A DNA stretch of 64,000 bases from Morinoia aosen (Eukaryota; Arthropoda; Malacostraca; Amphipoda; Talitridae), in the NCBI GenBank assembly GCA_030386875.1, contig CM059560.1, positions 26,468,183 through 26,532,182 of the forward strand, in the 5' to 3' direction. Of the stretch, positions 1-64,000 are shown piece after piece (within the stretch, counting starts at the first letter, position 1; every line of letters begins with the position of its first letter). The translations under genes and the position numbers were made by a program. The notes beneath the pieces are model-generated. The model saw only the letters and a list, made by a program, of their open reading frames with translations. It made no database searches and was not told the DNA's origin.

Positions 1-183
1 TTTTTCTCTACTTTCCCAACTTACCGTTTCTCTGCGCATGGGGCCTTGTGTGAGGACACTCCTTGTGCTTAGATTCTCTGTTCTCTTAATTCCATGGTAA
101 ATGTGACCTTCTTCTCCGGAGCATTTTCGTTGTAGCTAGGGACCTTTAACCACTTATATAGTTTTCATTAATATAATCTAATC
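1..183 (+). mobile_element. SINE-like retroposon copy A, 3' half, cut by window edge
   Basis: This is the 3' half of the family that dominates the window; its 5' part lies outside. It matches other copies from the CT-rich body (CCCAACTTACCG) through the CATAGATT-like block to the ATCTAATC tail. It keeps the extra block (roughly GGGxxTTGTGTGAGGACAC) that is missing from the younger copies, so it belongs to the older class. It is well diverged. Copy B starts about 20 bases downstream in the same direction. The assignment rests on visible similarity only. Confidence 0.75.
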
Positions 184-206
184 GATAATGTTGTGTTACT
201 AGGTTA

Positions 207-537
207 GCGCTCCCAGGGGGACAATGTGAGGGCCCGAGCTGAGAGTTAGGTAGGCCTTCTTTTTGTTGAAAAAAATGTTTTTGTTGAAAAAAATGTTTTT
301 GTTATGTTGAGGACCACCTTTTTCGGTTCACTGGAGTCCTGTTTTTCAGCACCTACTACTGTCTTCTTCAACTTTGATCTTGTTTCATAATCTTCCTTCC
401 CAACTTACTGTTTCTATGCCTTTCTGCGTAGATTCCGCGTTTCCTTAACTCCATACTAAATGGTGCATTCCTCCTTCCTCTCTTTGGATCGCATTTGTTG
501 CTGGGTAGGGAGGCTAAAACTAATGACTAATCTAATC
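207..537 (+). mobile_element. SINE-like retroposon copy B, 5'-truncated, with target-site duplication
   Basis: The copy begins inside the family head at AGCGCTCCCAGGGGG, lacking about the first 40 bases (the first two hairpins), and runs to an AATCTAATC-type tail. A 15-base direct repeat, TGTGTTACTAGGTTA, flanks it at 192-206 and 538-552. A 5' truncation with a perfect duplication right at the break is the signature of target-primed reverse transcription. It is of the younger class, lacking the block of about 20 bases. An extra GTTGAAAAAAATG duplication lies near 266-298. The duplication has no mismatch, which argues for a fairly recent insertion. Confidence 0.88.
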
Positions 538-552
538 TGTGTTACTAGGTTA

Positions 553-3500
553 CTCGCTGGTTAACTCATGGTAAAAATTATGAGTCCTGTAGTGTTGTGG
601 AAGAAGAGGTAAAGATAAAAGCCTTCACTCAAGCAACAATCACATATCAGGCTACTTTGATTTTAGGGTTATCAAGAGATAATGTCGAGCGCTTAACGAG
701 ATAAACCATTCCAATAAATATCTTCAGCGATCGCTTGTAGAACGCTGGACACGCTTTTGATATAATGTCTTCACCTCTGTGCCAACTTCCCAGGGTTTGT
801 AAAAATTATGCCCACGATGTTTCGTGTCATGTGCAACTTGGTGTAATGTTTTTGTGTATCTCAGATGTCACATGAAAAACCCGCTTTTGCTTATATTGCG
901 AATTTAAAGCTTGTAAAAAGAACTCGCATATAACGAGTTAGGATATATTTCAAAATTTGAGATGTATACAGAAAAATGCAAAAAGTTTTGAATTTTTGGT
1001 TGTAGGTGAATTTTTTTTCGCCATCCATTGGAGTCAGTTAGTTCCATTGCTATATCGTATGCTCACCGAGATACAAATTCATAAAGTTTGATGTAGTCCC
1101 ATAATCAGGAGGAGCTGAAGTCCCATTCTTCCTGCGTTTTTAACTTGAGATAGTTCGATGTCTGAAGGGCGTTAGATAGAGCTCGATGTTTGGACGTGTC
1201 GAGAGACGGGAGCCTTGTTCTCTGCAGAACTCGTTTCATGAACGGGCAATGGCAAAGTGCGCGGTATGCACATACACTAGTCCTGCAGTTATTTCCCACG
1301 TGTGTTGTAAAGGTCAACTGTAGACAGCCTGAATTAGATGCCTGCTGGTGTATCCACGACTTCTGTGTGCCAGTTTCGTAATGATGGTTAACTCACCATG
1401 CATTGAGCCTATGTATATTTATCACATTGGAAGACGCATAGTGCAATTTACTATCTAGACAATGTAAATTCATGCGTTAAATTCTTCCAAGTTTTCCAAG
1501 ACTTTGCTCCGTCATTTATAGAAGAAACTGTTCTAACTTCTTTACTTTCGCGGTCTAAAAGGATTTCTCCACTTTTTCCTGAGAAATTCCGTGCTCGAAA
1601 AGAGCTGAAAAATCTCGTCCAGTGCGTGTGGAGCGAATCTTTTCGAGTTGGAGGGCAAAATTAAATAACACTGTGCTCTTTCGCTTCACTGAAGCAGAAT
1701 AGGAGTCGAGTCTGCCTGCTTTAGTGGATACTTTTGCCTTGACTAGGTGGTAGGTAGGTCTGCTGCTCCTCCTCAATTGGGAGACCGAGCAGCAGCTTCG
1801 CTGCCTTCTTTTTCAAGGATTTCCATCGTTTTGGCTGCCAGGTTTTTAGTTTTCATCATTCGTTGAACTTATGACTGCTACGTAGTGATGCTTGTACTAG
1901 GTTGAAGGATGAACTGGGAGTCTGTTAATTCCCTTACTTTGATCTGATCAAAAATTAACTGCGTTTTGACCACAATAATTATTGTCCATTCGGCGTGTGA
2001 AGATTATGCGCTTTTCAGGAATAGGCAAGATTGCTGCACTCGACTTGCAATCTATTGTGTATTCATCAGTGCCAAGGAAATATGCGCTCACGGTGAAATC
2101 TCAAGTGATATTCGGTAGAATCAGCAACTCTTATTGTACGATTTTGTTTTTTTTAGCGACTAACTTAGCTCTGTCGTTTTTTTTCCTGTTCTCAGTCTCT
2201 TTCGTAAGTGCAACTGATATTTTGGACAAGTGTCCGTTTTTTTCCGTCTCTTCGAAAACTTACTGAGTGAAGTGGAACAATAATATTGGTCGAACTTCGT
2301 GTATGATAGTGATCATACATTTTCCGGGGATTCGACTACAATAATATTATTCGTCTCACCTCATGGGAGGTATTTGTTAAGAGCTTAAAACTTAGCGTAA
2401 GTTTTGAAATAGCAAATAGTTTTTGCACATATAGACAATTTGCAAACGGTCCTCGTAGAATCTAATCGAATGTCCACGTTCGTTGCGCACGTTGCATTAC
2501 CAATTAACAACTTAAGGTAATTAATCATGTTGTACGCACTCCATGTCGAATTACTTGATAATGCGTACATTTACTGAGAAAGCTACTTCTTGTTATCGTC
2601 ACAATCCGGATTAGATATGGCATTAATTGAGGCTGCACTCCTTTATGTGAAAGAAAATGAATTCAATGCTTAGATTTTACTGATTCATTACGACTGGAAA
2701 GTGGAAGATCATGCACGCAGTAGTTATTGGCATCGTACGTTTGATGTCTTGCTTTGAAAATGTGGTGTTTGAAAAGTCAATGAAATATGTCATTTCCATG
2801 CGTTCTTCATGACGAGAGGTTGCAACAGCTTGTATCGCCAAGTGTTTTCATGGTCTCGAGCGGTGGTGGAGATATGTCATGGAGTGCTGAAGGTACGTCA
2901 GATTAGAAGCCTAGAAGGGAGGGAGAGAGCTGACCTTGACGGAACGGTTGTGAAGCGCAAAAACTCGTCTTGGTGACCCTAGCGCTCATCAAGGAACGGT
3001 TTGTGTTTGTTGTGGCACCGGCTCTTTTGTGTTTGTACCCATTGTACTTGGCGCTCATAAATGGCAGGTAGAATTACTCTTGGTGGTATGTGATTTTCTG
3101 CCTTTGCTAGCGTGCCTTATGTACTTGTGCTCTCTGAAGGTGAGTTGCGAGCAATGCTTGCTAACGTTCTTTTGTGTGCGCTTAGTTGATGAGCTAATTT
3201 TGCCTCTGCTTTTTCTTTGTTGTTTACTGTGTTACCGGGGAAACCAGTACTCCTTTATTTTGTTTTTAACCAATAGGATTTGACCTCTCTTGTTGATGCA
3301 TCATGGAGAGGATGCTGTGGTGACGTGGCAATGCAGTGGTACCACTAGGTCTGAAAATGCGATCAGTTCCATCGTCAATAATCGCCTTTCACTCCAAACT
3401 GAAATAATATTTTGGCTGTAATAGTTATAATGGTGCTGTTGTAATTCGATTCCAGTATCGAATTTCAAAAATTTGTAGCGTTTTTTGAATGATATCATTG

Positions 3501-6177
3501 TTTTGATATAAGTTCTAATTGAGATTTTACCCATTGAGTTTTGTACAACCTTTCGTTGTTGCATGAGAAAAATTTGCTCACATTATGAAGAGTGCTAATC
3601 CTTCATGCTGATATGATGGGTGCAGGAGTAGGTAATTGGGATTTATTTGAGGCGCTTTGCTTTGATCGCGTTCACATGGTAGCTGGAGGCGGACGAGGCA
3701 GCGAGGAACTCTCCGCTCCGCTGCCTGGACTCGTTACAAAGAAGACGGCGCCTGCCTGCCTGCCGGAATTTCAAGCTTCGTTGCTCTTTTAACTCGCCCA
3801 GATTTACACATGAAGTCATCTGGCTCAGCTCCTAGCTTTTCTCGACGCCGCTTTCCGAGCGGGCCTTTGCTTTTCCCTTGGCTTCATTTTTTTGGTTTGA
3901 TTGATTTTCTGAGTTTCTTTGGGAAATTTGTTCTATTTTAATTCTTTTGTGAGCCTTACTGATATAAATAGGTTATCTTGTTTTGAGACATTTTCAATTT
4001 ATTTTTTCAGTTTCATATCCTTCATTGTTTCCGTAGCTTTTACGACACCTTGGCCCCTCATCACTGGTGTGAGGAGAGTCAGGTATCGAAGAGGAGGTTT
4101 AAACCCTCAATAGGGAAAGAGAAAGGAGTAGAAAAAAGAGAGAAAAGTTCACAGAAAGAGATAAATCAGAAATAAGGAGAGCTTCCTACTCTGCATTCGC
4201 TTGATCAGCGTGGAGATGATGAGTAAATGAAAGATTCAGTTATTTTATTCAAAGTAAACACGTGAGTTAATAAAGGCTTCATTTTGAACGAGCGCGCAAC
4301 ATAGGGTGACCAAAAAATCAATGTGAGACCCCAGAAAAAATCTTCCGACACAAACATAAACTCAGCACAAATTTAAATATAACATTTAGATCACCACATT
4401 ATTTAATGAATGCACGCCGCATTTTTCGAATACAATATTCGAACACTTTACGGCCCCCATTTTTTTGTGTGGTCTCGTGAACGACACTCCATTAGTAACT
4501 TGGTATTCTACGTTTGAATTATTACTGAACAATTATATCAGACATGATAATTACTTTGGCATCATCATTACCTTTCAAAGATTTTACGGCTGACGTTTAA
4601 CCCGCCCTGCCGTTGTCTCGGTTCTTTTTTCGTCCGATAGCCTAAATCACGCATTTTCATTTTCAACTGTCGCCTAGTCTTCACCCTCGTCATAGACGCA
4701 GTAAGAGCAATGATCACTATCTTATATGATATTACTGGGTATTGTTGAGCTAAATATCCCTTCCGAATTTTCACCGAGTGGCTTGTCTTCTCGTTCGTGC
4801 GCCCGAGGTTTGTCGCGGTGTTTTCTTGCAGCGCCCTCCCGTTCCTGCGAACATTTTGTTACTGTAACCTATTCTTGTATAATTTACTCCCCTGCATTTA
4901 ATGAATTGACATTAGTTTAGCTACGTTGCAGATGCATAAAGCTGTAATGTTTTTACCGGAATGTCTACTCATTTTGCAACGGAAATTCCGTGCTTATTTA
5001 GGATAGCGTTCAATTTTAATTTTATTTTTTCATCCGTTTGCCTCTTAAAAAATGAACTAAATCATGGCTGAAAATGGACTCATTTCGCCTTAATGCAAAA
5101 TAATTAAGAAATGGAAACTGAACTGAAATCTTGAGCTTCCTCCTAACTCTGACGTTTGAATTACCCGAAATGGCGTCGCTGCCCTCACTGATTGCTTGCT
5201 GTAGAAAATTGAAATATGTTTACTAATGGTGAACTAAACATCGCTTTGTTCAATTCGCTCAATAAAAAAATAACGTAACGCTTGAATTTTTTTCAATTAG
5301 TTATGTGTCTCCTGTTCGACCAAGTTTTGGTTTTACATGGCGTCGATTAGTACACCGCACCGGTTCACGCTTCTTTCAGGGCTCACTGACAAGAGAATTC
5401 CTCTGTTTCAAAGCCTCAGCTTAAGCTTATATGCCAAACCAGCCCCTTGTTTTAGATATTTTTTTCAAAAGACCGACGCCCATTCCTGCGCTGTGACTAA
5501 CCCTCGAGCATCCCCCAACATTCCTTGGCATCAACGTCTAGATTTTATAAGGATATCTATCACCCATATCTCTTAGTGTCATATACCTCTTAATTTAGAA
5601 TTGAATTTATATCAATCATATTTCAAAGTTCAGTTATGCTCTCAAAGTCTGTTTGAATATACATCCTAATGCTTCCCCGTTCAGCTACCGCCACATACAC
5701 CACACTGTTCCGTGAGGTAACTCAGATGCCTTGTCTTCTCAAGCGGCGTAATAATACCCTCGATTCTTAAGTGACGCCGTTGTTCGGAGCTTTTGCAATG
5801 GTTTCACTGTATAGTTTTTCTCTCCTTCTTGTACCAGTAAGTGCTCTAATATTTTTGGAAGAATTGAGTTTGCTGTCTAAGCTTTTGAGTTGTTCTTCGA
5901 GCTTCTTTTTGCTTTTAGATTAGCTTTATGATTATACAATTATGTTAATAGTTGTTTTTTTTATTCGATTTTAAATTTTCTTAGCATCCCATTTAATTTT
6001 ATGAAAAAGCGTGCATTTTTTCTTCTCTTTACATGAGTTTTGCGGCAATTTGAGGCAAAACACTTTGGGAAATGTCGGCGCCCATTTGCGCGCAGGAAAC
6101 TGCCTATTTGCATGAAGTAGACGTGATGGAGGGGCGCCTTGCTGGCCGCTGTCGCGCGGCTCTGTGGAGCCCGGCTG
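553..6177. other. Stretch without a recognised gene
   Basis: AT-rich noncoding DNA. Reading frames here are all under about 110 codons and none resembles a known protein. A GC-richer patch lies at 3650-3800. A purine-rich tract (GAAAGAGAAAGG-like) lies at 4118-4180. A small perfect inverted repeat, TTCGAATA-CAA-TATTCGAA, sits at 4425-4443. A GC-rich run at 6120-6177 leads directly into the pyrimidine tract that follows. I see no repeat-family copy in this stretch. Confidence 0.6.
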
Positions 6178-6470
6178 TCTGCCTTCCTTCCTTCCTTTTT
6201 CCTTCTTTTATCATTTCTTCCTTTTTTCCTTTCTTCCTTCTTTCCTTTTTTCCTTCTTTCCTTTTTTCCTTCTTTCATTTCTTCCTTCTTTCCTTTCTAC
6301 CTTCTTTCCTTTCTTCTTTCTTTCTTCCTTCTTTCTTTCTTCCTTCTTTTCTTTTTTTCTTCATTCCTTCTTTCCTTTTTTCCTTCCTTTCTTTCTTTCC
6401 TCCCTTCGTTCTTTCCTTGATTCCTTCCATCATTCTTTCTTTCTTTGTTCCCTTATTCCTCTCTTCCTTC
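6178..6470 (+). repeat. Degenerate CCTT/TTTCC polypyrimidine microsatellite tract
   Basis: About 290 bases of almost pure C+T on the + strand, built from CCTT, TTCC and TTTCC units with occasional interruptions (an A near 6209, 6298 and 6427; a G near 6409). Three + strand frames and their minus-strand shadows stay open across it because the repeat contains no stop. These give S/F/L-rich or K/E/R-rich peptides that are not genes. Long mirror-like pyrimidine runs of this kind can form triplex DNA; that is general knowledge, not something shown here. Confidence 0.93.
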
Positions 6471-8524: not shown

Positions 8525-8890
8525 CCCCTCAGGGGGATACAACTATTGTATCTATGGGAATTGGCGCTCCCAGGGGGACTATGTGAGGGCCTGAGCTAAA
8601 GGTTAGGCAGGCTTCCTTTTTGTTGTAATAAAATAGGTTTTTGTTTTGTTACGGACCATCTTTTTTCGGTTCACTGCTGTCCTGTTTTTCAGCACCTACT
8701 ACTTTCTTCTTCAACTTTTTTCTTGTTTCATGAACTTCTTTCCTAGCTTACTGTTTCTGTGCACTTCGTGCATAGATTCCGCGTTCCCTCAACTCCATAC
8801 TAAATGGTGCTTTCCTCTTTCCTCTCTTGGAACATCTTTGTCGTGGTTAAGGGAGGCTAAAACTTTCTTATATAATAATAATAATAATAA
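8525..8890 (+). mobile_element. SINE-like retroposon copy C, full length, young, with target-site duplication
   Basis: This is a full copy and a good reference for the family. It starts with the hairpins CCCCTCAGGGG and GATACAA-CTA-TTGTATC. The GTGAGGGCCTGAGCT block follows at about base 59 of the element, a pyrimidine tract ending in TTTTTCAG at about base 168, the TACTAAATGG block near 275, GGTTAAGGGAGGCT near 321, and a tail of AAT repeats. A perfect 14-base duplication, TTTCTAATACGTGT, flanks it at 8511-8524 and 8891-8904. No A box or B box is apparent, and T runs inside would stop Pol III. It is nearly identical to copy R at 56046 and shares private changes with it. Confidence 0.92.
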
Positions 8891-9043: not shown

Positions 9044-9404
9044 CCCTTTCAGGTGAGTACAATTTGTGTACCTATGAGAATTAGCGCTCCCAGGAGGGAG
9101 ACATGAGGTCCCGAGCTATAGGTAAGGTAGGCCTTTCTTTCATTGAAATAGAACAGTTCAGGTTTCAGGAGGGACCGACTTTTTTCGTTTCACTGCTGTC
9201 CTTTTTTCTGTACTTGTTACTTTATTCTATAACTTTTAAACTCGTTTCATAAACCTCTTTCCTTATTTTGTGTTTCTGTAAGCTGAGAGGGGAGATATCT
9301 TGTGCATAGATTCCACGACTTCAAGTCCATTTAGAATGGTCCTTCATTTCGATCTCTTGAGAACACTTTTATTGTGGCTACAGAATCTTTGACTACTATA
9401 ATAA
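9044..9404 (+). mobile_element. SINE-like retroposon copy D, full length, old
   Basis: A diverged near-full-length copy. The second head hairpin is altered to GTACA-ATTTG-TGTAC, in which the outer A-T pair of the young copies is a G-C pair, so pairing is kept despite change. The block missing from young copies is present (AGCTGAGAGGGGAG region). The pyrimidine-tract acceptor is lost here: the run ends in TTTTTTCTG. No clean target-site duplication is visible. It lies 140 bases downstream of copy C in the same orientation. Confidence 0.82.
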
Positions 9405-10828: not shown

Positions 10829-11200
10829 CCCCTCAGGGGGATACAATTATTGTATCTATGGGAACTAGCGCTCCCAGGGGGACAATGTGAGGGCCCGAGC
10901 TGAGAGTTGGGTAGGCTTTCTTTTTGTTGAAATAACATAGGTTTTGGTTTTGTTAAGGACCAACTTCTTTTCGGTTCACTGCTGTCCTGTTCTTCAGCAC
11001 CTACTACTTTCTTCTTCAACTTTGGTCTTGTTTCATGAACTTCTTTCTCATCTTACTGTTTCTATGCTCTTTCTGCATAGATTCCACGTTCCCTTAAACT
11101 CCATACTAAATGGTGCCTTCTTCCTTCCTCTCTTTGGATCTCATTTGTTGAGAATAGGGAGGCTTAAACTAACTAATAGTCTACGACTCGTAATCTAATC
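10829..11200 (+). mobile_element. SINE-like retroposon copy E, full length, young, with target-site duplication
   Basis: Full copy from the CCCCTCAGGGGG head to a tail of TAATCTAATC. A 12-base duplication, TCTCGATTTAAT, is exact at 10817-10828 and 11201-11212. It carries the younger-class deletion (TGCTCTTTCTGCATAG). The acceptor-like run ends TTCTTCAG. It differs from copies C and R at the GAAATAA and GTTAAGGACC positions, so it belongs to a different young lineage. A mariner MITE lies 56 bases downstream. Confidence 0.92.
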
Positions 11201-12806: not shown

Positions 12807-13150
12807 CTCCTCGGAGTTCACAATTATTGCACCTAAAGAAATTGGTGCTCGGAGGAAGAAGCAATGGTTCCGAGCTGAAGGGTAAGTGAGCCTTCTTTTT
12901 GTTGGTATAAAATAGGTTTTTGTGAAGGATCATCTTTTTCTGTTTACTACTGTCCTTTTTTACAGCATCTAATGCTTTTTTCTTCGATTTTTCTGTTCGA
13001 CCTTGCGGTTTCTGTGTGTGAGATATGGGGGACACCACTTCTGCGTAGATTCCTCGTTCCTTCAATTCCTTACTAAATAGTGTTTTCTCCCTTCCTCTCT
13101 TTGAAACATCTCTGTTATAGTGATGGAGGGTGAAACTAACTTCAATCTAA
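12807..13150 (+). mobile_element. SINE-like retroposon copy F, old
   Basis: A strongly diverged copy. The head is recognisable (CTCGGAG, CACAATTATTGCACC) but the second hairpin no longer pairs. It keeps the block missing from young copies (TGTGTGAGATATGGGGGACACC). It contains GGGTAAGTGAG, where the family has AGGTAGGC; this is a near-perfect splice-donor string. The acceptor-like run reads TTTTTTACAG. No target-site duplication is evident. Confidence 0.8.
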
Positions 13151-13685: not shown

Positions 13686-14041
13686 CCTCTCAGGGGAATA
13701 CGACCATAGCAACTATAGGAATTAGCACTCTCAAGGGGCAAATGTGAGGTCCCGAGCTGAGAGTTCGGTAGGCCTTCTTTATGTTGAAATAAACTTTTTT
13801 TTGTTGTTATGCTAAGGACCATCTTCGTTTTGGTTCACTGCTGTCCTGTTTTTCAGCACCTTCTACCATCTTTTTCAACTTTTATCTAGTTTTAAATACT
13901 TCTTTCTCAACTTAATGTTTCCAAGTCTCTTGGGCATGGATTCTGCGTTTCCTTATCTCTATACTAAATCGTGCCTTCCTCCTTCTCTTTGGAGCGCTTT
14001 TTTATTGGTTAGGGAGGCTTGAACTGACATCTAAATCTAAT
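13686..14041 (+). mobile_element. SINE-like retroposon copy G, full length, middle-aged
   Basis: Full-length copy with a CCTCTCAGGGG head and a CTAAATCTAATC tail. It has the younger-class deletion but more substitutions than copies C, E, P and R. The acceptor-like run TGTTTTTCAG is kept. No duplication is visible at its 3' side because the truncated copy H is joined directly to its tail. Confidence 0.85.
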
Positions 14042-14197
14042 CTTGTTTCATGAACTTTTTCCTCAATTTACTGTTTCTTTGCCCTTTCTGTATGGATTCC
14101 GCGTTCCCTTATCTCCACATTAAGTGGTGCTTTCCTCTTTCCTCTCTTTCCTCTCTTCGGCGGTTAGGGACGCTTAAACTAACATCTAGTCTAATTT
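14042..14197 (+). mobile_element. SINE-like retroposon copy H, 5'-truncated, joined to tail of copy G
   Basis: The last roughly 155 bases of the family, starting at the internal CTTGTTTCATGAAC string and running to an ACATCTAGTCTAAT tail. It abuts copy G with no unique sequence between them; the junction falls on ATCT, which occurs both in the tail of G and at the internal start point of H. That suits a second, truncated insertion into an existing tail. It could also be a dimeric source RNA or unequal exchange. Confidence 0.8.
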
Positions 14198-17032: not shown

Positions 17033-17694
17033 CAGAGGCTGAGCAAAAATGTGGAAACACCTCGTGGAATGCATGCGTGAACGCAAACGTTGATTTTAGC
17101 CAAGCCTGTAGGTGGCGTTGTTGTATTCACCTACTAACGCCATCTGTATAGTGTCTTCGAGACGTTGCGAGTGTCAGTCGTCAAATCCCAATCCCGAGAT
17201 GCACTCTTAGCTGTCAACCGTATCGTGGTATTCCATGGCTCTATGATAGCTCTGCAAGGTCGTATAACTGGCAAGGATAACATGACCATTTTGGTCGATC
17301 ATGTCCGTCCCATGGTGCAATGTTGGCTTTCCAACGGTGATGCTGTTCCAAGACAACAACGCCTCTGTTCACTCATCTCGGATCGTGCAGGACTGATTTT
17401 GAGCATGAAAGTGATTCATCGCAACTCCCTCGGCGACCTGTCACCAGATTTTAATTTTATTGATCCTTTATGGTCTAATTTAAAGAGAACGGTGCGGATC
17501 GCTTTCCGCTTACCTGAACTTGTTTTTATTTGCTGAAGGGATGGTATGAGATTCCTTTAGAAACCATTCAGGACCTGGTTTATCTATTCTGAGAAGACTA
17601 CAAGGTGTTTTGAATTCCGGCGGTTTTCCTCCTCCGTGTTAAATGTTGCTATTTACTTTTTCTAGATGTTCCAATATTTGTCTCCATATGTCCG
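17033..17694 (+). mobile_element. Tc1-like DNA transposon, internally deleted
   Basis: About 660 bases with degraded terminal inverted repeats. The left end is CAGAGGCTGAGCAAAAATG followed by TGGAAACACC. The right end, read on the other strand, is CGGACATATGGAGACAAATA followed by TTGGAACATC. The inside carries the C-terminal part of a Tc1-type transposase at 17165-17536. Near its end the frame reads SPDFNFIDPLWSNLKRTVR, matching the SPDLNPIExLWxxLKRRV signature of the last acidic catalytic region. Upstream, GRITGKDNMTIL and WLSNGDAV align with the middle of the DDE domain. The DNA-binding domain and first catalytic aspartate are absent, so it cannot move itself. The flanking TA has decayed. 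Confidence 0.85.
17165..17536 (+). pseudogene. Tc1-like transposase fragment (C-terminal DDE part)
   Basis: Open for 123 codons but only a fragment; intact Tc1-like transposases are about 340 residues. The part SPDFNFIDPLWSNLKR holds the region around the final catalytic acid, with D in place of the usual E in the PIE motif (FIDPLW). Central residues VRPMVQCWLSNGDAV match the usual strand before the second catalytic aspartate, but the following QDNAPxH signature is scrambled (QQRLCSLISD). The open frame is therefore chance survival, not evidence of function. Confidence 0.8.
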
Positions 17695-19675: not shown

Positions 19676-20048
19676 CCTTCAGGAGGATACAACTATTTTA
19701 TTTGTGGGATAAGCACTCTCAGGAGGAATATGTGAGGTTCTGAGCTAAAGGTTAGTAAGGCCTTTTTTAATTTGAAATAGAATGGTTTTTATATTTTGTT
19801 ACGGACTATTTTTTTCGGTTCACTGCAGTTACGTTTTTCAGCACCTACTGCTTTCTTCTTCAACATTTATCTTGTTTCATAAACTTCTTTCTCAACTTAC
19901 CGTTTCTATGCACCTTCTGCATAGATTCCGCATTCCCTTACCGCTATACTAAATGGTGCCTTCCTCCTTCCTCTTATTTATATGCTTTTTTATACGCTTT
20001 TTTTTAGTGCTTGGGGAGACTTAAACTAACATATAAGCTAATCTAATC
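19676..20048 (+). mobile_element. SINE-like retroposon copy I, full length, middle-aged
   Basis: Full length from CCTTCAGGAGGATACAACTA to a tail of ACATATAAGCTAATC. Younger class by the deletion (TGCACCTTCTGCATAG). It has a small local duplication near 19979-20005 (TATGCTTTTTTATACGCTTTT) not seen in other copies. The acceptor-like run CGTTTTTCAG is kept. No exact flanking duplication is seen. A further truncated 3' end follows directly. Confidence 0.85.
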
Positions 20049-20109
20049 CTCTCTACGGAACGCCTTTGTTGCGATTAGGAAGGCTCAAATTAACACCTAA
20101 TCTAATCTT
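20049..20109 (+). mobile_element. SINE-like retroposon copy J, 3'-terminal fragment joined to copy I
   Basis: The last roughly 60 bases of the family (GAACGCCTTTGTTGCGATTAG through ACACCTAATCTAATC) directly follow the tail of copy I. This is the same arrangement as G/H at 13686-14197: a severely truncated second 3' end attached to an existing tail. Confidence 0.75.
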
Positions 20110-24372: not shown

Positions 24373-24723
24373 CTCCTCAGGGGGATACATCTATTGTATC
24401 TATATGAATTAGCGCTCCCAGAGGTAAAATGTGAGGTACCGAGCTATGAGTTAAGTTGATTTTCTTTTTGTTTAAAATGTTTTTTTTTGTTTGTTTTATT
24501 AGACACCATCTTTTTTCGTTTTTTTACAGTCCTGTTTTTCAGTACCTACTACTTTCTTCAACTTTTATCTTGTTTTATGAATTTCTTTCTCAATTTACTG
24601 TTTCTGTGCACCTTTTCCATAGGTTCTGCGTTCCCTTAAGTCCATACTAAATGGTGTCTACCTTCTTCCTCTCATTCAAACATTTTTGTCGCGGTTAGGG
24701 AGCCTTATGCTAACATCTAATCT
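24373..24723 (+). mobile_element. SINE-like retroposon copy K, full length, middle-aged
   Basis: Full copy with a well-kept head (CCTCAGGGGGATACATCTA, AGCGCTCCCAGAGG), the younger-class deletion (TGCACCTTTTCCATAG), the acceptor-like run CTGTTTTTCAG and an ACATCTAATC tail. Substitutions are more frequent than in copies C and R. I could not find an exact flanking duplication. Confidence 0.87.
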
Positions 24724-33500: not shown

Positions 33501-34143
33501 AAAGTTTTTTGAAGTGCGGAGAATGAAGAAATTTGGAAAAAATTGTTGGAATTGAAATCATGTCACTTACGTCTTCAGCGCAGAAAAATTGCCCGTAAAC
33601 GATTTAATCGTTCAAAAAAATAATGCTTGAATATAGATATACTTCAGCGTTCTAGCGCCTGCTATAGCGTATTTCTCATTAGAGGGTATTTAACAGGCGG
33701 TCCTTGTACATTTTCGAGTAAATGTTATCTGTTTCATACGGTTCGAGAGAGCTAATGCAAAATTTGATAATCAAACTTATTTTTGTCGTTCCATTTCGTG
33801 CATTTTATTGTAAGTTTAGAGTGGTGGAGGGTGGAGGTGGGGGTTCGGATGAGCTGCGGTTGCACCACTCGAGCACGATCTGGATGGTGTTCCGGTGCTT
33901 CTCTTGCAGGATGCTGAGCTGCTCTATCAAAGATGTTGACTTTCAATATTGGATGGTCGAGTGGCTTACATTTGGCCAACATCTAAATTAGATTCATTTC
34001 GTTTCTTCGTGGTTTTCTCTTTTTCTCTGAATTTCTTCATTCTTCAAGCCTGCTATTTTTAAAGCATCGTGGATTTTTTCCTTTTTCTCAATGTTTTACT
34101 ATGTACTTACGAACTTCCGAGGCGAGTTATTCGTACGCACAAA
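30588..34143. other. Stretch without a recognised gene
   Basis: AT-rich with no recognised gene, retroposon copy or transposon. A GC-richer patch lies at 32040-32200. An imperfect inverted repeat, GGTTCAAAT-CC-ATTTGAATC, sits at about 32423-32442. A G-rich run (GGTGGAGGTGGGGGTTCGG) lies near 33829-33847. Confidence 0.5.
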
Positions 34144-34474
34144 AAGCACTCCTATGGGGAAGGATGTGAGGTTCCGAGCTAATCGTTAGGTAGGTTTTCT
34201 GCTTGGTTGATATGAAAATTTTTATTTATTTTATTACGGACGATCTTTTTTGGTGTACTGTTGTCCTTTTATGCCAGCCTCCATTCCTTTTTTCTTTGAC
34301 CTAATGTTGTTATAAACTTTTTTTTAAATTTACTGTTTCTGTTTGAAAGGTGTGGGGACGCACTTTATGCATAAATTCCTCATTCCTTCGTTTGAAAGTT
34401 AAATGGTGCGTCCCTCCCTCTCTCGGGAACAGTTTAGTGTGGTTAGGGATGTTTAACCTAATTCGGAATCTAAT
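34144..34474 (+). mobile_element. SINE-like retroposon copy L, old, head eroded
   Basis: Recognisable from AGCACTCCTATGGGG (family AGCGCTCCCAGGGGG) through GTGAGGTTCCGAGCTAA to the GGTTAGGGATG block and an AATCTAAT-type tail. It keeps the block missing from young copies (GGTGTGGGGACGCAC). The first two hairpins are absent or unreadable. The acceptor-like run is weakened to TTTTATGCCAG. No flanking duplication is visible. Confidence 0.8.
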
Positions 34475-35714: not shown

Positions 35715-36847
35715 GTAACTGACGATTCGATTCTCAATTTGTACGCCTACGCACACCAAACGAAAATGCGTTGGTTTGTGTTCCCAAGGCTTAGGCCATG
35801 CGAACATTTGTGTTCAGATGTGATGCTCTCGGCGTCTTAGTGTGAGAGCGCGCTCTCACTGTCTCATGACGAATACTTCATAAGTTTGTGAGCCAGGCTG
35901 ACGCTTCATGCGGGTTGCTGCCGGCCTCATGCCCTGTCATGCGTGTTCTCGCGTGGTCATCGTTTCTTTATTGCAGTATTTATGGTAGCTTCTTGTCTAA
36001 AGAGGAAGCACTTCATTCCTCGGCGCGAAATGGTTTCTCTTATTTATGTGCCTTGTTTTTGTTACTTATGTTCTCTTACGTTACTACGTTACCATGCTGT
36101 AAATTTCGGGGCGGAGTTTCCGTCATTTGACTTTGTCTTGTTTTTTATTTTTTCTGACACTTTTGAAAAATAATTCTTATTTCCGAAAACGTGTATTTAT
36201 GAGTTAAGTATACTTCTTAGCGAGTATTCAAAATCACTGTTAGCCTCTCTCTCTCGCTCGTTCCCTTTAGTTCGCACGTTTTTAGCTGCGTTTCATCTTC
36301 CCACAGCCCTTTGCCTTTGTGCAAAGATGACGCAAAGCTCTCCTTGCTCAACCATGCTTCTCTCCTCCTTTTTTACTCTTTGTATTTGTATAGAACTCAC
36401 CTTTGTTCCGAGCTATAGCGTGTCTTTGAGCGCCTGTCCGGACAGAGTCTTCAGTTGGTGCACCCTCCATCTTTTGTACGTGCCATCCTGCATGTTTGCG
36501 CCCTGAACATCTCATGTTGTCCTAAGTTTGCTCACCAACGGTGCTCTTCTATATTTGAACTCCCGAACTGCGGGAAATGAAGGAGCAGACCGCTGTTTGA
36601 AAACACGGTTCCACTCAGACGCCGTGGGATCCTCAGCGAATGAAAGCCTGCGAGGCACTTGTTTTTGCTATTTCCTTAATAATTCCTTTTGTCAAATTAT
36701 TCTTTTACTTTGATTACTTCTCTACAGTTTCGCATTAACTTGGTCACTCTTGACTCTATTGGTGTAGATTTTAATGAACCAGAATGTTTTTTTGCGTATT
36801 TCATCACAGAGATTACACTAATGTGGGGAGTACACTAATGTTGAGTA
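35715..36847. other. Stretch without a recognised gene
   Basis: A mix of moderate GC and AT-rich DNA, with CTCTCTCTCTCGCTCG at 36245-36260. Just before copy M the string ACACTAAT occurs three times in about 55 bases (36816-36867), twice as GGGGAGTACACTAAT, a small local duplication that includes part of the retroposon head. No gene is recognised. Confidence 0.5.
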
Positions 36848-37182
36848 TATCAGGGGAGTACACTAATCCCAGGAAGAATATGTGAGGTTTCGAGGTAGAG
36901 GTTAGGTAGGCTTCTTTTTGTTAAAATAGAATATCTTTTGTATTGTTTCAGATAAGCGTTTTTCGATTCCTTGCTGGCTTTCTCTCAGCACCCGTTGCTT
37001 TCCTTTTCAATTTGTATCTTGTTTCATTGATTTCTTTCAAATTTACTGTTTTCATGCACAATGTGTGGGGACACGCCTTGTGCTCATTTTCCCCGTTTCC
37101 TTAACTCCTTATTAGATGATGCCTTCCTCATGTAACTTCTGCGTTGTGATTAGGGATGCTTAAACTAACTTGCATCTTAATT
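36848..37182 (+). mobile_element. SINE-like retroposon copy M, old, head internally deleted
   Basis: It begins with ATCAGGGGAGTACAC, the family's first hairpin region, then jumps to TCCCAGGAAGAATATGTGAGG, so about 20 bases of the head (second hairpin and following) are missing. The rest follows the family to GATTAGGGATGCTTAAACTAAC. It keeps the older-class block (ATGTGTGGGGACACGCC). The acceptor-like run reads TTTCTCTCAG. Confidence 0.8.
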
Positions 37183-42999: not shown

Positions 43000-43320
43000 G
43001 GCGCGTGAGGTCCCGAGCTAGGAGTTTGGTATGCCTTTTTTTGTTGAGATAAAATGGGTTTAGTTTTGTTAAGGACGATCTTTTTTCGCTTTACTGTTGT
43101 CATATTTTTCAGCACCTCTGACTTTCTTCTTCAACTTTTATCTTGTTTCCTAACTTTCCTTCTCAACTTACTGTTTCTATGCGCACGGGATCCTGTGCGG
43201 GAACACTCCTTGTGCATAGATTTTACGTTCTCTTAACCTGATACTAAACGGTGCCTTCATCCTTCCTCTCTTTGGGCATCGTTATTGTGGTGAGGCTGAA
43301 ACTAACTTATGATCAATCTT
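43000..43320 (+). mobile_element. SINE-like retroposon copy N, older class, head missing
   Basis: Starts at GCGCGTGAGGTCCCGAGCTA, lacking all head hairpins, and continues to GTGAGGCTGAAACTAAC and a short tail. The older-class block is present (GCACGGGATCCTGTGCGGGAACACTCC) and itself forms GCACGGGATCCTGTGC, a near palindrome. The acceptor-like run ATTTTTCAG is kept. No flanking duplication is obvious. Confidence 0.82.
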
Positions 43321-47924: not shown

Positions 47925-48125
47925 TCATGTGCCTCTTTTGTTGTGTTTTCTTCCTCTTCATCTGTCTTCACCTTCTCTAACTTGCTGTTTCTGTGCTTAG
48001 GGTATCCTGCGAAGGGACATAACCTCGAGCATAGATTCCCTGTTTCCCTAAGTCCGTAATTTATGGTCCCTTCTCTTTGCTCCCTTGAGTTGTCTTTGTT
48101 GTGATGAGGAAGTCTAATTTGTATA
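47925..48125 (+). mobile_element. SINE-like retroposon copy O, old 3' part
   Basis: Family sequence is recognisable from CTTCTTTCAG (acceptor region) through AACTTGCTGTTTCTGTG, the older-class block (GGTATCCTGCGAAGGGACA), AGCATAGATTCCC and TGTGATGAGGAAGTC to a TA-rich tail. The 5' half is absent or too diverged to read. No duplication is visible. Confidence 0.75.
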
Positions 48126-49364: not shown

Positions 49365-49732
49365 CCCCTCAGGGGGATACAACTATTGTATCTATGGGAA
49401 TTAGCGCTCCCAGGGGAAAAATGTGAGGGCCCGAGCTGAGTTAGGTAGGCCTTCTTTTTGTTGAAATAAAATGTTTTTTGTTATGTTAAGGACCACCTTT
49501 TTTCGGTTCACTACTGTCCTGTTTTTCAGCACCTCTGACTTTCTTCTTCAACTTTTATCTTATTTCATGAACTTCTTTCCCATCTTACTGTTTCTATGCC
49601 CTTTCTGCATAGATTCCTCATTTTCTTATCTCCATACTAAATGGTGCCTTCCTCCTTCCTCTCTTCGATACGCTCTATTTTTGTAGCGGTTAGGGAGGCT
49701 TAAACTAACTTATAATCTATAATCTATACAAT
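49365..49732 (+). mobile_element. SINE-like retroposon copy P, full length, young, with target-site duplication
   Basis: Full copy with head CCCCTCAGGGGGATACAACT, the younger-class deletion (TGCCCTTTCTGCATAG), the acceptor-like run CTGTTTTTCAG, and a tail of TATAATCTATAATC. A 13-base duplication, CTTCCTGTTTTCG, is exact at 49352-49364 and 49733-49745. It is closer to copies B and E (GAAATAAAAT, GTTAAGGACC) than to C and R. Confidence 0.92.
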
Positions 49733-54285: not shown

Positions 54286-54640
54286 GAGGAGAAACAGCTG
54301 TTGTGTCTCTGCGAATTAGCGCTCCCAGAGGTGAGATGTGAAGTCCTGACCTAAAGGTAAAGGAAGCTTTTTGTTGAAATAGAATACGTTTTGTTACATA
54401 TGTTACGAACTATCTTTTTTTCGGTTCTCTGCTGTCGTTTTTTCAGCACCTTATATTTTCTTCTTCAACTTTCATCTTGCTTCATAAACTTACAATCTTG
54501 TTTCTATGTGCTGGGTATTGGGGCACTTCGTATGCGTAGATTCCCCGATTCCATAATTCCGTACTAAACAGTGCTTTCCTCTCTTTCGAACACCTTTGTT
54601 GTGGCAAGGGAGGCTTAAACTAATTTATTATCTAATATAT
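54286..54640 (+). mobile_element. SINE-like retroposon copy Q, old, near full length
   Basis: Head is recognisable (GAGGAGAAACAGCTGTTGTG, GAATTAGCGCTCCCAGAGG). It keeps the older-class block (GGGTATTGGGGCACTTCG). The acceptor-like run reads CGTTTTTTCAG. Ends in ACTAATTTATTATCTAATA. No exact duplication is found. Confidence 0.82.
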
Positions 54641-55619: not shown

Positions 55620-55845
55620 TTCATTATTTAACGCCCAAGTGGACTGTACGGTCCTCTTTCAAAAATAACAATAATATATTGTATTTCTTATTCAATTTGT
55701 ACACTAATGTTTCCTTTGTACTTCACTGCCGAATGGCAGTTCCTTTCCTATCTTGATAACGACTACCGAATACCAGTGTCGGTTTAGTGATAGTGGTTGT
55801 AATAAAGGTAATATGAGTATAAAAATGTGGGCGTTAAAGGGTTAA
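55620..55845 (+). mobile_element. piggyBac-like MITE copy 3, palindrome-bearing
   Basis: The right end, on the other strand, is TTAACCCTTTAACGCCC, identical to copy 2. The left end is worn (TTCATTATTTAACGCCC). The interior is copy 2 reversed, with shared blocks such as GCCGAATGGCAGTTCC and GGTAATATGAGTA. The subterminal palindrome is degraded: AAGTGGAC and GTCCTCTT around 55637-55658, with one stem mismatch. Confidence 0.85.
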
Positions 55846-56045
55846 GTACTAGATGAGGTCTGGTTGCATTTTATTGCAGTAATTGTTCAAAATTGTCAAC
55901 ACATGATTCTATAGTTATTTATTATTGAGTGTATTTAGTGTTTAGTCATGATTTAGGTTGAGTTCAGTGCTTTTAGTTTTCATCAGGCTTTTAAGTTAGC
56001 CTTTGAACTCGTTCGTAATTTGACTCATTATTGCTTGTAATTTAT
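55846..56045. other. Short unannotated spacer
   Basis: AT-rich spacer between the MITE and copy R. Its last 14 bases (56032-56045, TGCTTGTAATTTAT) are the left target-site duplication of copy R. Confidence 0.6.
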
Positions 56046-56401
56046 TCCCTCAGGGGGATACAACTATTGTATCTATGGGAATTAGCGCTCCCAGGGGAAC
56101 CATGTGAGGGCCCGAGCTAAAGGTTAGGTAGGCTTCCTTTTTGTTGTAATAAAATATGTTTTTGTTTTGTTACGGACCATCTTTTTTCGGTTCACTGCTG
56201 TCCTGTTTTTCAGCACCTACTACTTTCTTCTTCAACTTTTTTCTCTTGTTTCATTATCTTCGTTCCTAGCTTACTGTTTCTGTGCACCTTGTGCATAGAT
56301 TCCGTGTTTCCTCAACTCCATACTAAATGGTACCTTCCTCTTTCCTCTCTTAGAACATCTTTGTCGTGGTTAAGGGAGGCTAAAACTTTCTTATATAATA
56401 A
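56046..56401 (+). mobile_element. SINE-like retroposon copy R, full length, youngest-looking, with target-site duplication
   Basis: Nearly identical to copy C at 8525, with which it shares TTGTAATAAAAT, GTTACGGACC, CCTAGCTTACTG and AAAACTTTCTTATATAATA. Younger class by the internal deletion. A 14-base duplication, TGCTTGTAATTTAT, is exact at 56032-56045 and 56402-56415. The acceptor-like run CTGTTTTTCAG is present. An exon candidate with canonical splice sites starts 38 bases past its end. Confidence 0.93.
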
Positions 56402-56439
56402 TGCTTGTAATTTATGTAACTCGTCCCCTTTTTTTGCAG

Positions 56440-59400: not shown

Positions 59401-60992
59401 CTCTCTTTTTTTTTCATTTTTTTCCGTAAGATGAAAGGGCAGCGCGTGCCAGTAACGCGTTTCACCATCGCGTTTGTGGGCGTCAGATTTTGTTTGTGAA
59501 TTGAATGCTAAGTGCAAGTTGAAATTCTGGAGGCTTGTTAAATCAGTTCCCGTTAGTATGTAAATGGTTCAACTCTGCTAGTATAGAGCGAGCAGCGCGG
59601 TCATTAAGGCATGTTGATGCCAATTTTTGTGACTGGTTAAATCCTTTAAGCACGCCATATTATTACTGATACCTGCCCTTTTCCAAAGTTGTTGAGTGTC
59701 TAGAACGGTAGCTCTGTACTCTCGCTGCAGTTGTATTGCGGTGCGCGTATCTTCTAATGAGGACACTCGTTTTTTATGATCAACTTGGCTCATTACGGCG
59801 TGCGGCAACGACCTTACATTCTCTGTCACTTTATCTAATTTGAGGGGATGAAAAAGGAATGACAACTCTTCAAAATTACTCTTGTGTTATTGAAATATGT
59901 GGTTGAAATATGCCGTCTCTGTTTTGCATGATTCGATGAACGTTGGGAAAAAATAGACATTATTGTCAGATGTTCACGCACAACTCGTTTATTTTATTCA
60001 TTGTCCAGTGATAGTTGTGTGACTTATGACTATCGAAATATTTATGGTTTGTTAAGTGACGAATCGCCAACATATAGCCTTGCCCATTAATATTCTGAGT
60101 ATTTTTGACAGTATGTTACCTATTATAACGAACGTGTACTTTGTCCTTATTAGTGCCTAATAAATGAAATTTACATACCATGTGCTAGTTTCTTCTATTG
60201 AATTTAGTGTGATGGCTTTTAAGGGAGTAAAATTTTCATGTAGTGTGGCTGGTTTCAAGTATTTGTTGAAATCCGTGGAGGATGAATCAAAATTCCACCA
60301 AGAACACAGTATTGTAATGCCGCTATGTTTGTGTTACTAAGGATCGAGACCTTTATTGGTTTACTGCACTGCGCACGTGCTGTGCTGTACAGTCCAAACT
60401 TGTGCAATTTGCATGCAATTGGGGCTCGGAAGAAGTCCTTGAGAGCCGCAATCTTTTTCAAATCTAGGTGATTGTGGCTCCTACGGTGTCTTTATTGGCT
60501 CGTAGTTGTGTTTATTTTTCCGACTAAAGTTGTGTTGAGAACTAAGTCGGGTTCGGTCACTCGGATCCATTTAATATGTAAATGAATACTTTTCCCATGG
60601 CTTTCGGCCTCAGTTTGGTTCCCCAAATAATCACTATCGTTTAGTGTGATGTAGCATTGTAGAAAATAAGCGCTGAATTTGATAACATGCGTAGAGTTCT
60701 TAATCTGGTGTAGAATCACTGACTTTTATAACATGCGTAGAATCTCAATCTGGTGCAGAAGCTAAAGGTAAAATGTACTACTCTACTGTTGCAACGCTTT
60801 TTGCATCAAGATGGTGACGACATCTGAGTTTTAGTGCCCCAATGACTTCTGGAGTTCCGATGTTTGAAAATTATTTTTTTCTCGTATTTTCAAGTTTTTA
60901 GAGCTCTATGACGATGAAATCTGCTGTTAAATAGCGTAGGTATTTATAGTGTCATGTGTATTCCACATACATTTCCACGACATTGGATCCCT
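56479..60992. other. Stretch without a recognised gene
   Basis: A GC-rich patch at 56860-57150 and another at 58100-58390 carry open frames on both strands. CGCCATCTAAT-type motifs lie at 56994-57031. AAT repeats lie near 58660-58678. The rest is AT-rich. No gene, RNA or repeat-family copy is recognised. Confidence 0.5.
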
Positions 60993-61085
60993 GGACTCCA
61001 TACTAAATGATGCCTTCCTCCTTCCTCTCTTTGGATCGCCTTTGTTGCGGATAGGGAGGCTCAAACTTACTAATAATCTAATTTA
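60993..61085 (+). mobile_element. SINE-like retroposon copy S, 3' fragment
   Basis: The last roughly 90 bases of the family, from GACTCCATACTAAATGATG through GGATAGGGAGGCTCAAACTTA to a TAATAATCTAAT tail. The sequence is close to the young copies, so this looks like a recent, severely 5'-truncated insertion. The fragment is too short to assign a class by the internal block. Confidence 0.8.
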
Positions 61086-63130
61086 ATTGAACATTTCAGA
61101 CTTTCTATTTAGCGTATCTTTCAATATAAATATCTGTTCCGTCGCGTCTTGGCATATTACATCAGATCTGACGAGTGTGGATTGAAATGTTCAGAACTTG
61201 ACGTATGATTTTGTTCTCGTTTAAACAGTCTCCTGCATCAACCCTGATACCTGAATATTTTAGGTTTGAGTAATTTTTCAGATTTTTGTTATCCTACCGT
61301 TATGAGTAAAATTTGTAACCGAGGCCTAGAGTGCATATGGTGACAGACGCAGATCTTGTCCCGTTTAATCTGGTTCATGCGCATGCGGTGAGTTTCTGTT
61401 CATAATAATGATTGTTCCACCTCACGATTCTTTTTCGTCTATACTCACAAAGATGATGAAAGTTCTCAGTGAAAATCCTGCGCCGAAGAATTTACGAGTT
61501 TCCCAACGTGGTCGTAATCAAGTCCAGCCCGCCAAGAGATCCCCGCGGAAATTTTGAAGACCCCGTAGTTGCTGTTCGCTCTCTTCCCAATGACGACGCA
61601 ACTATTGGCTAAGATACTTGGCAGTCGTCTCACAGCCTCATTCTTTATTTAGGTTTGAGTTGAGAAAATATTGTCATTTAAAGGACGCTACGAGAATTTG
61701 AATTGAATTGCAAACGCCATCTAATGGCGCTCACACGTAGCCGTTTTGTTGTTGTGGTGTGAGGTGCACGCCTCCAAACAGAACACTCTGTTGCTGATGA
61801 TGGATTGATTTAATTTTTTGTGCGTCAGCGGTGATCTTGACAGTTTTTGATCTTGTTTTCGATGAACCGTATCTCGTTTAAAGCTTTTGTTTTAGCGTTC
61901 TCATGGTCAAACATAATAGCGAAATATTTTAGAATAATTGGCTTTTGGAAAAAGGGATGAAGGAACTTCTCAACAATATAAATGTCTGTGGTTTTATTTA
62001 AAAGTGTTCATGCCCCCCAATTAATGAGTGAGCTGCAGAAGCCTTCTAGCCCTACACTAATAAGCTGTAAGTACCCCAATCGAAATACTCTTAATTGGGA
62101 GCTTTTTACGGAGCCAGTGAGGCATCTAATGGCTGCTTGATGCACTCCAGAGCACTCGCAGTAATTGAGGCAAATTGTTTCGAAGAATTGCGCGCGGGAC
62201 ACCGAGTTGAGCCGGTGCTCCGCCACTCCGCCGTCTTCAGGCCGCTAGCGACTCACTTGCTCTGTTCTGTGGGGTGCGTTCGCTCTCGGTATTGCTTGTG
62301 ACGCCCAACTTCAGCACTGGTGCTCGTGTCCGTCTGGGATGTGTTGTGTTGCTTGTAATTTTCTCCTTTTATACTTTCACATAAACATAGTTGCTTTTCA
62401 TATCATTATATATTATGTTATAAGGGCTATTGTTGAGTGAATAAGACTAGAGTTTTGTTACTTGTGTGCAAACACTCGGGCACATTCGCTCCTTTGCATG
62501 CATCGTTGGTGGAGCGACAAGGGAACACCATGTATTCAAGACATGTGTGCTAGCGAGCAATGCGTGAGGTCGCCCTTTGTAGTTCTGCAGCGAGATGTTG
62601 GTAGCGACTTGAAACAGGCAGGTCGCCTGTAAGCTCACGACCGTCGCTTTTGTGATGCGCTTAAAGTGTAGCAAGCTAGGCGGCGACTGCTGCCGCCGCT
62701 GCTGCCTGAGAGATTTGCTCGCCCAAATTAAATCCGGGCGCTTCTGTTGCTGAATCTCGAGTCCTCGATTGATGCTGCCCACGAGGCCCATAAATGATGC
62801 GTCTGTCGGACCAACACCCGCTTGCTTCCTCCTCAACAGCCAGCAACAGACGCGGGCTGCTGCAGACGGCTGGATGGACGGGTTTAGTGACATGGCAGGT
62901 GCTCTCTTAGTTTTACTTGTAGCGCAGCCACCACACATGTTAGCTTCGTGCGACCAAGACCCACGGAAAAAAAATAATTATAATAATTTATCCCCTTCAA
63001 TTTTCTCGTGTTTGATCACTTTGAGTAACTGATCAATGGCTTCGCTCCATGAAAGCGTGAGTGCGTTGCGTGATGCGAACTTTCGCTTTTAAGCAGCGTT
63101 TCTGCTTGACAATGACAATGTGTATTCATA
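61086..63130. other. Stretch without a recognised gene
   Basis: GC-rich patches at 62110-62330 and 62630-62930 carry open frames on both strands (longest 163 codons, minus, 62447-62938) without a recognisable domain. A perfect CGCCAT-CTA-ATGGCG palindrome lies at 61715-61729. The remainder is AT-rich. Confidence 0.5.
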
Positions 63131-63423
63131 AGCTGGAGCCTAGGTAAGCCTTCCTTTTGTTGAAAGAGAAATGTTTTACGTTTTCTTGCAGATCATCTTT
63201 TCTCGGTTTAGCGCCGTTTTTTCAGCATCTGTTACTTTTTTCAACTCCATCTTGTGTATTCTTTCAATCTCGCTGATTCTTTGCGTTGGAGGTGGGGACG
63301 CATTTTGTGCGTAGTTTATCCGATCTCTTAATATCACACTAAATGGTGCTTTCGTTCTTAATCTCCTGGGAACCCCTTTGTTGTGGTGATAAAAACTCTA
63401 ACTAATTTATAATTGTATCTAAT
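63131..63423 (+). mobile_element. SINE-like retroposon copy T, old, head missing
   Basis: Starts at AGCTGGAGCCTAGGTAAGCC, lacking the head, and runs to AACTAATTTATAATTGTATC. It keeps the older-class block (GGAGGTGGGGACGCATTTTG). The family AGGTAGGC here reads AGGTAAGCC, a good donor-like string, and the acceptor-like run reads CGTTTTTTCAG. A MITE is inserted directly at its 3' tail. Confidence 0.8.
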
Positions 63424-63613
63424 GTAACCTTTAATCGTTTAATTTATTTTTACTCGTATTACCGTTGTTAGACTGGCCCTAGCATCAGAGCAAAGATTGA
63501 ACTGCCACTCAGTGGTGAAGTTTAAAAATACATTAGATCGTAAATTGGTCAAGAAATAAAATGCGTGAGCATTTTCATCGAGTGTGCCGTGTGTGGCACG
63601 TGGAGCAGGTTAA
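63424..63613 (-). mobile_element. piggyBac-like MITE copy 4, worn, palindrome-bearing
   Basis: Left end GTAACCTTTAATCG is a worn TTAACCCTTTAACG; the right side ends at TTAA (63610-63613). Interior blocks (TACTCGTATTACCGTTG, GAACTGCCACTCAGTGG) match copies 2 and 3. The subterminal stem GTGCC and GGCAC with a 6-base centre lies at 63584-63599 and is of the same type as copy 1, not copy 2. It abuts the tail of retroposon copy T. Confidence 0.72.
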
Positions 63614-63814
63614 GGCTTGAAGACTTAACGGCGAGTCTACAGATCCAGTAATTGTAGGCTTCGCTTCCAATGCCCTTAGGAGCGAGGGCCTCCTCAATTT
63701 GTGTGAGATCATACATGAATTGAAACGTTTTTCTCTCTTCCAGATGCTTCATTTTTCTCTAAGCATGTGTCTCATCGAGCTACTTTTAATCAAAACAGCA
63801 TTTTTTGTTCTTGT
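63614..63814. other. Short unannotated spacer
   Basis: About 200 bases between MITE copy 4 and retroposon copy U. No recognisable feature. Confidence 0.55.
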
Positions 63815-64000
63815 TCCCCCCGGATAAATATGTGAGATCCCGAGCTAAAGGTTGGTAAGACCTTACTTTATTGAAAAGAATATGTTTTTGTTTTGGACGG
63901 ACCATCTTTTTTCGGTTCACTGCTTTCCTGTTTTCAGCCCCTACTACTTTCTTCTTCAACTTCTATCTTTTTCCCCCAACTTCTTTCTCAAATTACTGTT
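63815..64000 (+). mobile_element. SINE-like retroposon copy U, 5' half, cut by window edge
   Basis: Begins at CCCCCCGGATAAATATGTGAG, a rearranged or deleted head, then follows the family closely: GATCCCGAGCTAAAGG, TTTTTTCGGTTCACTGC, CCTGTTTTCAG and CTACTACTTTCTTCTTC. It runs off the window in the CT-rich body, so class and tail cannot be read. Confidence 0.82.

Follow-up and report, generated by a model that had tools for sequence, protein, structure and literature searches.

Why should every copy of one retroposon lie on the same strand over 64 kb? The question is raised by a 64,000-nt stretch of Morinoia aosen DNA (the window; C5:26468183-26532182 in a genome of 1.99 Gb and 29 contigs), in which an earlier note made by eye had described all copies of one short interspersed nuclear element (SINE) as pointing the same way. 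The SINE clusters along transcribed regions and has the sense orientation in every checked gene that carries one, which points to insertion linked to transcription.

A one-strand SINE array

The window was searched on both strands with nhmmer (--max, E<1e-3) using a model built from eight copies, which gave 21 plus-strand matches and no minus-strand match in 1-64000. Above the threshold only noise was present, consisting of one minus match (E=2.4) and one plus match (E=5.5). A refined model of 78 copies again gave 21 plus and no minus matches at E<0.01, and reversed, uncomplemented sequences gave no matches to it. The single-strand arrangement is therefore borne out by two profile models, and the minus copies that the note had thought a sensitive search might reveal did not appear at threshold. 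The 21 stretches amount to at least 18 insertions, as the pairs 8-160/191-534, 13686-14034/14033-14193 and 19676-20040/20047-20104 may each derive from one event. Under random orientation the probability of a single strand is ~1e-6 for 21/21, matching the one in a million proposed by the note, and ~8e-6 for 18/18.

Identity to the consensus spans 68-91% across the 19 window copies longer than 120 nt, so the copies differ in age. Readable target-site duplications (TSDs) also differ among four copies (those at 8525, 10829, 49365 and 56047). Given these differences in age and TSDs, the array is not a block duplication, as the note had argued from ages and flanks; the differing TSDs rule that origin out. 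Full and partial copies in the same orientation abut at 13686-14193, 19676-20104 and 8-534, in the manner of dimers, template jumps or repeated tail insertion.

The element

Its sequence features identify the repeat as a SINE mobilized by target-primed reverse transcription (TPRT): it is short, interspersed and of high copy number, with TSDs of a length typical of TPRT and a simple-repeat 3' tail. It measures ~355 nt and starts with CCCCTCAGGGG, where two small hairpins are predicted. TSDs of 12-17 bp were present in 34 of the 51 full-length copies examined (at most one mismatch allowed), and alternative scoring of the TSD of the 56047 copy gives 17 nt with one mismatch. A single duplicated insertion site was found, in that L053 and L054 (labels of this kind denote sampled loci) have common flanks.

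The youngest copies end in (AAT)n, others in (ATCTA)n-like repeats. Pure (AAT)n tails occur in L002-L008 and L041-L060, which would fit a change of tail in the source element or in its partner. A 27-mer of the SINE has 13,444 exact matches genome-wide (6,596 forward and 6,848 reverse); as it is present in 3 of the 21 window copies, the genome total may be near 90,000 copies. For an RNA ancestor, Rfam gave no match at gathering scores in the window and only chance-level matches on the 8525 copy. A 3' tail shared with a long interspersed nuclear element (LINE) was not seen by eye downstream of two LINE frames (L011 and L026), no systematic search having been made.

Orientation domains along the genome

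In twenty 10-kb samples taken at 100-kb steps over the 2 Mb around the window, plus, minus and empty blocks were present; pooled counts from the samples leave out L001, which is a copy of the window. Along contig 1, copies were listed where they matched any of three search words, taking the first 100 places of each. The 150 listed copies in 14.7 Mb fall into 34 orientation runs against 74 expected by shuffling, contrary to the possibility, raised in the note, that runs are no longer than chance; the longest same-orientation run holds 33 listed copies. Agreement between adjacent listed copies over 0-14.7 Mb was complete below 10 kb (36/36), high at 10-20 kb (22/26) and 20-50 kb (30/36), and then fell to 6/9 at 50-100 kb and to chance level (17/30) at 100-300 kb. 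None of 18 loci with two or more SINE matches was of mixed orientation, and the orientation domains measure roughly 100 kb to 1 Mb. Random orientation of the SINE is ruled out by the strand counts in the window and by the runs on contig 1.

A repeat of ~230 nt resembling a miniature inverted-repeat transposable element (MITE) served as a control, with 3,228 pattern matches genome-wide at no more than two mismatches. Of seven copies within 30 kb of a listed SINE, two lay on the strand of the nearest one, a small control, and the window has one copy on each strand. An orientation bias common to all repeats is thus not supported. The control using LINE 3' ends, judged by eye, offered few places near listed SINEs.

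On contig 1, minus SINEs form a long run of ~1 Mb at C1:13.2-14.27 Mb, with a lone plus copy near 13184527 just before it, among minus copies. The run may represent a giant gene or a row of co-oriented genes, perhaps with a nested gene.

Orientation relative to genes

Among the genes checked, 11 have the SINE in or near them and in all 11 it is in the sense orientation; they comprise four genes near the window, three ion-channel genes and four kinase genes. Those near the window were identified with Pfam as plexin (L019), Lon (L025), MIR-domain (L027) and myosin (L013) genes, all on the plus strand, and 8/8 SINE matches at these loci are sense. The Sema exons of the plexin gene, also on the plus strand, stand at C5:26585143 and 26586731, 53 kb past the end of the window. 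Plus SINEs were found at 26.330, 26.355 and 26.400 Mb, throughout the window, and at 26.570 and 26.600 Mb; two intervening 1.8-kb samples held no SINE. The window therefore lies inside one plus domain, sampled over ~277 kb, that reaches the plexin gene. The window probably represents a giant 5' intron or the leader region of that gene, and may alternatively belong to a separate upstream gene on the plus strand. A coding-score scan of the window, and Pfam searches of six of its open frames, gave no exons.

A prediction of sense orientation, made beforehand, was tested in six ion-channel genes by sampling 4 kb from the middle of each of 12 large introns or intervals. All seven SINE matches were sense; they fell in 5 of the 12 loci and 3 of the 6 genes, with seven loci free of SINEs, and one locus with three matches possibly lies between genes. 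For kinase genes, five of five exons in four genes agreed with a listed SINE within 60 kb, one stop-bearing frame being admitted. In all, 166 of 244 exon rows were compared with listed SINEs, and 161 of these had no listed SINE within 60 kb; the other 78 had no listed SINE of their contigs within that distance. The SINE places set against the 166 rows did not include three secondary pieces or the copies in the window itself.

At C7:21.59-21.65 and 22.28-22.34 Mb, and in other such pairs, gene matches recur at distances of hundreds of kb to Mb, their scores and spacing being identical or nearly so. These may be recent segmental duplications or uncollapsed haplotypes.

AT skew and target sequence

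T exceeds A along the full 64 kb of the window, a skew that persists with the SINEs masked (Table 1). Across the 20 samples, net SINE orientation follows masked AT skew (Spearman -0.72). Masked AT skew is under 0.04 in nine of these 10-kb samples, which account for 2 of 32 SINE matches, and the other 11 account for 30. On the sense strand, AT skew was negative (T-rich) in 10 of the 12 ion-channel intron samples.

Target sites carry A or T at the start of the TSD in 32 of 34 cases and have T-rich surroundings. A target matrix, which overstates the preference for T, was built from 33 sites, with L054 left out as its flanks are the same as those of L053. From the matrix, sense is expected to exceed antisense 2.85-fold in the window and at most about 4-fold in any one sample; with the 53 matches taken as independent, their orientations have log10 P = -9 under it. 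Target-sequence preference combined with strand skew is consequently insufficient. The eight samples that were SINE-free by the first model carry 31% of the target-sequence weight, for which 16.5 of the 53 matches would be expected; they consist of seven of the nine near-neutral samples and L009.

Insertion bias or selection

Copies with pure AAT tails, the youngest, number 1,377 genome-wide. Among 22 of these that were compared with listed copies, those lying within 15 kb of another listed copy match the orientation of the nearest one in 15 of 15 cases. Processing signals were counted in 57 copies. AATAAA occurs in 37 copies in sense and in 13 in antisense, Y10NYAG sites in nine and none, and GGTAAG in five and two, with the polypyrimidine-AG sites also better on average in sense. 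The exceptions are GTRAGT-type 5' splice-like words, present in nine copies in antisense and one in sense, and Y8NCAG words (two and one). Because sense copies have more AATAAA and better polypyrimidine-AG sites, the usual counter-selection predicts a bias opposite to that seen.

Three causes had been offered in the earlier note, and of these strand-biased targeting tied to transcription is best supported, by the 11 of 11 genes, the flips between domains and the scarcity in neutral DNA. Selection within a long intron, by itself, leaves that scarcity and the bias of the youngest copies unaccounted for. A functional role for the arrays finds no support in these analyses, none of which was aimed at it. 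Insertion of the SINE that is transcription-coupled and strand-specific, and primed on the template strand, is accordingly the reading preferred here, at a probability of roughly 0.55. In a stronger form, integration would be obligately coupled to transcription and primed on the template strand, and the strand of germ-line transcription would be recorded genome-wide in tens of thousands of copies; this form is tentative and falls somewhat short of an even chance. Sense insertion by TPRT would mean that the template strand carries the first nick or supplies the 3' end from which complementary DNA is primed. The LINE machinery serving the SINE would then use template-strand ends present or exposed only during elongation by RNA polymerase II in the germ line; candidates are topoisomerase nicks, repair incisions at a stalled polymerase and the template strand of an RNA:DNA hybrid. 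Such ends would account both for the sense bias and for the low number of SINEs in DNA of neutral AT skew, and the SINE map would preserve, like a fossil record, the direction of transcription in the germ line.

Several observations weigh against transcription-coupled insertion. The partner LINE was not found. Transcription is read from exons and AT skew, and only 11 genes bear on orientation; among them the Lon and MIR matches barely exceed the Pfam cut-offs, and under a stricter preset rule only one kinase exon counts (1/1), the other four lying beyond 20 kb or containing a stop. At least four more sampled genes carry no SINE (two on C11, one on C12 and the ankyrin gene of L023, within its sample). 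All listed contig-1 copies include six discordant neighbouring pairs closer than 20 kb, two of them closer than 10 kb, which may mark gene borders or nested genes, and of the 22 youngest copies compared, 3 are oriented opposite to the nearest listed copy, which in each case is at least 49 kb away. Skew and SINEs also part company in places: AT skew disagrees with SINE orientation in L003, L011 and L024, L024 and L026 each hold one SINE at near-neutral skew, and two intron samples combine sense SINEs with a slightly positive sense-strand skew. The empty sample L009 is not neutral (skew -0.095), and the refined model detects one SINE match of ~50 nt in the otherwise empty L021.

The main rival, which we consider unlikely, holds that insertion is random and that antisense copies are quickly purged, through harm to pre-mRNA processing or through double-stranded RNA formed with sense copies. 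Selection on intronic repeats has been proposed for mammals, and an antisense newcomer in a long intron with many sense copies would form inverted repeats; the antisense excess of GTRAGT-type and, slightly, of Y8NCAG words points the same way. The commoner AATAAA, Y10NYAG and GGTAAG of sense copies instead turn the usual harm argument against the sense orientation. Purging within genes, moreover, would not deplete untranscribed DNA, contrary to the two of 32 matches in the nine near-neutral samples and the 16.5 expected in the eight empty ones, and no relaxation is seen in the youngest listed copies within 15 kb. If avoidance of inverted pairs were the sole cause, roughly half of the genes should hold only antisense copies, whereas none of the 11 does.

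Coupling of insertion to replication fork direction, with genes co-oriented with replication, is improbable. The orientation domains, at roughly 100 kb to 1 Mb, could correspond to replicons in size; replicative strand asymmetry is also stated for human LINEs and SINEs in passages of PMC10030826. Fork coupling does not predict the SINE-poor neutral regions, and all 11 genes would have to be co-oriented with the fork. An endonuclease that prefers T-rich targets, acting where transcribed strands are T-rich, is more improbable still: the A or T at the TSD start, the T-rich surroundings and the correlation with AT skew are as it would have them, and the excess given by the target matrix and its log10 P largely contradict it. 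Least probable of all is that the array arose by duplication, whether local or segmental, or by retroposition in which the transcript of a gene returned to that gene. The partial dimers at 13686-14193 and 19676-20104 and the common flanks of L053 and L054 are in its favour, whereas TSDs otherwise differ between copies, and the 8525 copy is closer to its best matches on other contigs (98-99% identity over ~365 nt) than to the 56047 copy (97% over 198 nt).

Features of the window and its host

The matches on which the strand counts rest are given in Table 1 with the other features of the window. A CCTT/CTTT-type microsatellite of 262 bp occupies 6182-6443. An open stretch at 17138-17533 resembles, by eye, the end of a Tc1/mariner transposase; Pfam gives no match there. 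Haemocyanin genes of arthropod type are clustered in the host genome, and the one protein examined is malacostracan-like. Its best PDB matches, 1hc1 and 6l8s, from spiny lobster and shrimp, are far ahead of chelicerate chains.

Table 1. Coordinates of SINE copies and other features in the window
Feature	Position	Strand	Evidence
SINE 3' half (model 211-348)	8..160	+	E 2.9e-16
SINE, near full length	191..534	+	E 1.3e-92
SINE, young, full length; TSD TTTCTAATACGTGT	8525..8876	+	closest matches elsewhere 98-99% identical
SINE, old, full length	9045..9400	+	E 2.3e-65
SINE, full length; TSD TCTCGATTTAAT	10829..11183	+	profile match and TSD
SINE, old	12812..13145	+	E 1.1e-61
SINE, full length	13686..14034	+	E 9.7e-91
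SINE 3' half, directly behind the 13686 copy	14033..14193	+	E 1.3e-31
SINE, full length	19676..20040	+	E 2.0e-88
SINE 3' end, behind the 19676 copy	20047..20104	+	E 1.0e-7
SINE, full length	24375..24722	+	E 3.0e-84
SINE, old	34141..34472	+	E 2.3e-50
SINE, old	36826..37174	+	E 4.6e-59
SINE, 5' truncated	43003..43314	+	E 8.6e-70
SINE fragment	47960..48117	+	E 1.9e-18
SINE, full length; TSD CTTCCTGTTTTCG	49365..49719	+	profile match and TSD
SINE, near full length	54288..54634	+	E 1.2e-74
SINE, young, full length; TSD TGCTTGTAATTTAT	56047..56399	+	profile match and TSD
SINE 3' fragment	60986..61080	+	E 7.8e-23
SINE, old	63114..63412	+	E 2.8e-46
SINE, cut at window edge	63816..64000	+	E 1.7e-38
T-rich strand of transcription-like domain	1..64000	+	A 15952, T 22181; AT skew -0.149 with SINEs masked
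MITE-like control repeat, ends TTAACCCTTTAACG / CGTTAAAGGGTTAA	39985..40220	+ (relative to its other copy)	
MITE-like control repeat, opposite orientation	55627..55851	-	

Relation to known systems and significance

According to passages of Servant et al. (2017, PMC5717806), TPRT into the template strand yields sense orientation, and transcription-coupled repair biases human L1 against template-strand insertion. The same passages describe a weak antisense bias of L1 (62.1% to 37.9% in CSA+ cells; p = 0.049 for pooled repair-proficient versus deficient cells) and insertion almost equally inside and outside genes. L1 resembles the present SINE in moving by TPRT with an orientation bias in genes, one that arises at insertion for L1 and probably for the SINE as well. 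It differs in being weakly antisense, whereas the SINE is sense in 11 of 11 genes and its AT-neutral samples are SINE-poor.

The SINE also resembles the SIDERs of Leishmania, described in PMC2689281 as short, degenerate retroposons that are mostly transcript-sense. Sense orientation within 3' untranslated regions is called exclusive in the abstract of that paper, whereas its table gives 3.6-8.3% antisense there; in gene clusters sense exceeds antisense about 4-fold, and antisense copies are enriched in spacers. By that account, SIDERs sit in the 3' untranslated regions of polycistronic units and do include antisense copies, while the present SINE lies in introns of single genes or in stretches upstream of them, and none of the 11 genes examined showed it in antisense. 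The host here is also not a trypanosomatid, having malacostracan-like haemocyanins. Human Alu-type elements, in passages of PMC10030826, are likewise abundant SINEs with gene orientation statistics, often clustered in direct orientation. In the papers compared here, the orientation biases of transposable elements are partial and mostly antisense, and bias at insertion is hard to tell from selection. Beyond the Leishmania SIDERs, searches of open-licence PMC papers brought up no title or opening of an abstract that describes a sense-only SINE of this kind.

With no antisense copy in 11 genes, one-sided youngest copies and SINE-poor neutral DNA, the element would be a clean natural system. If its insertion is indeed coupled to transcription, then ends that transcription creates on the template strand are usable by TPRT. 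In crustacean genomes that lack annotation, the orientation of the SINE would then also help to assign gene strand, to delimit giant genes and to trace ancestral transcription in the germ line.

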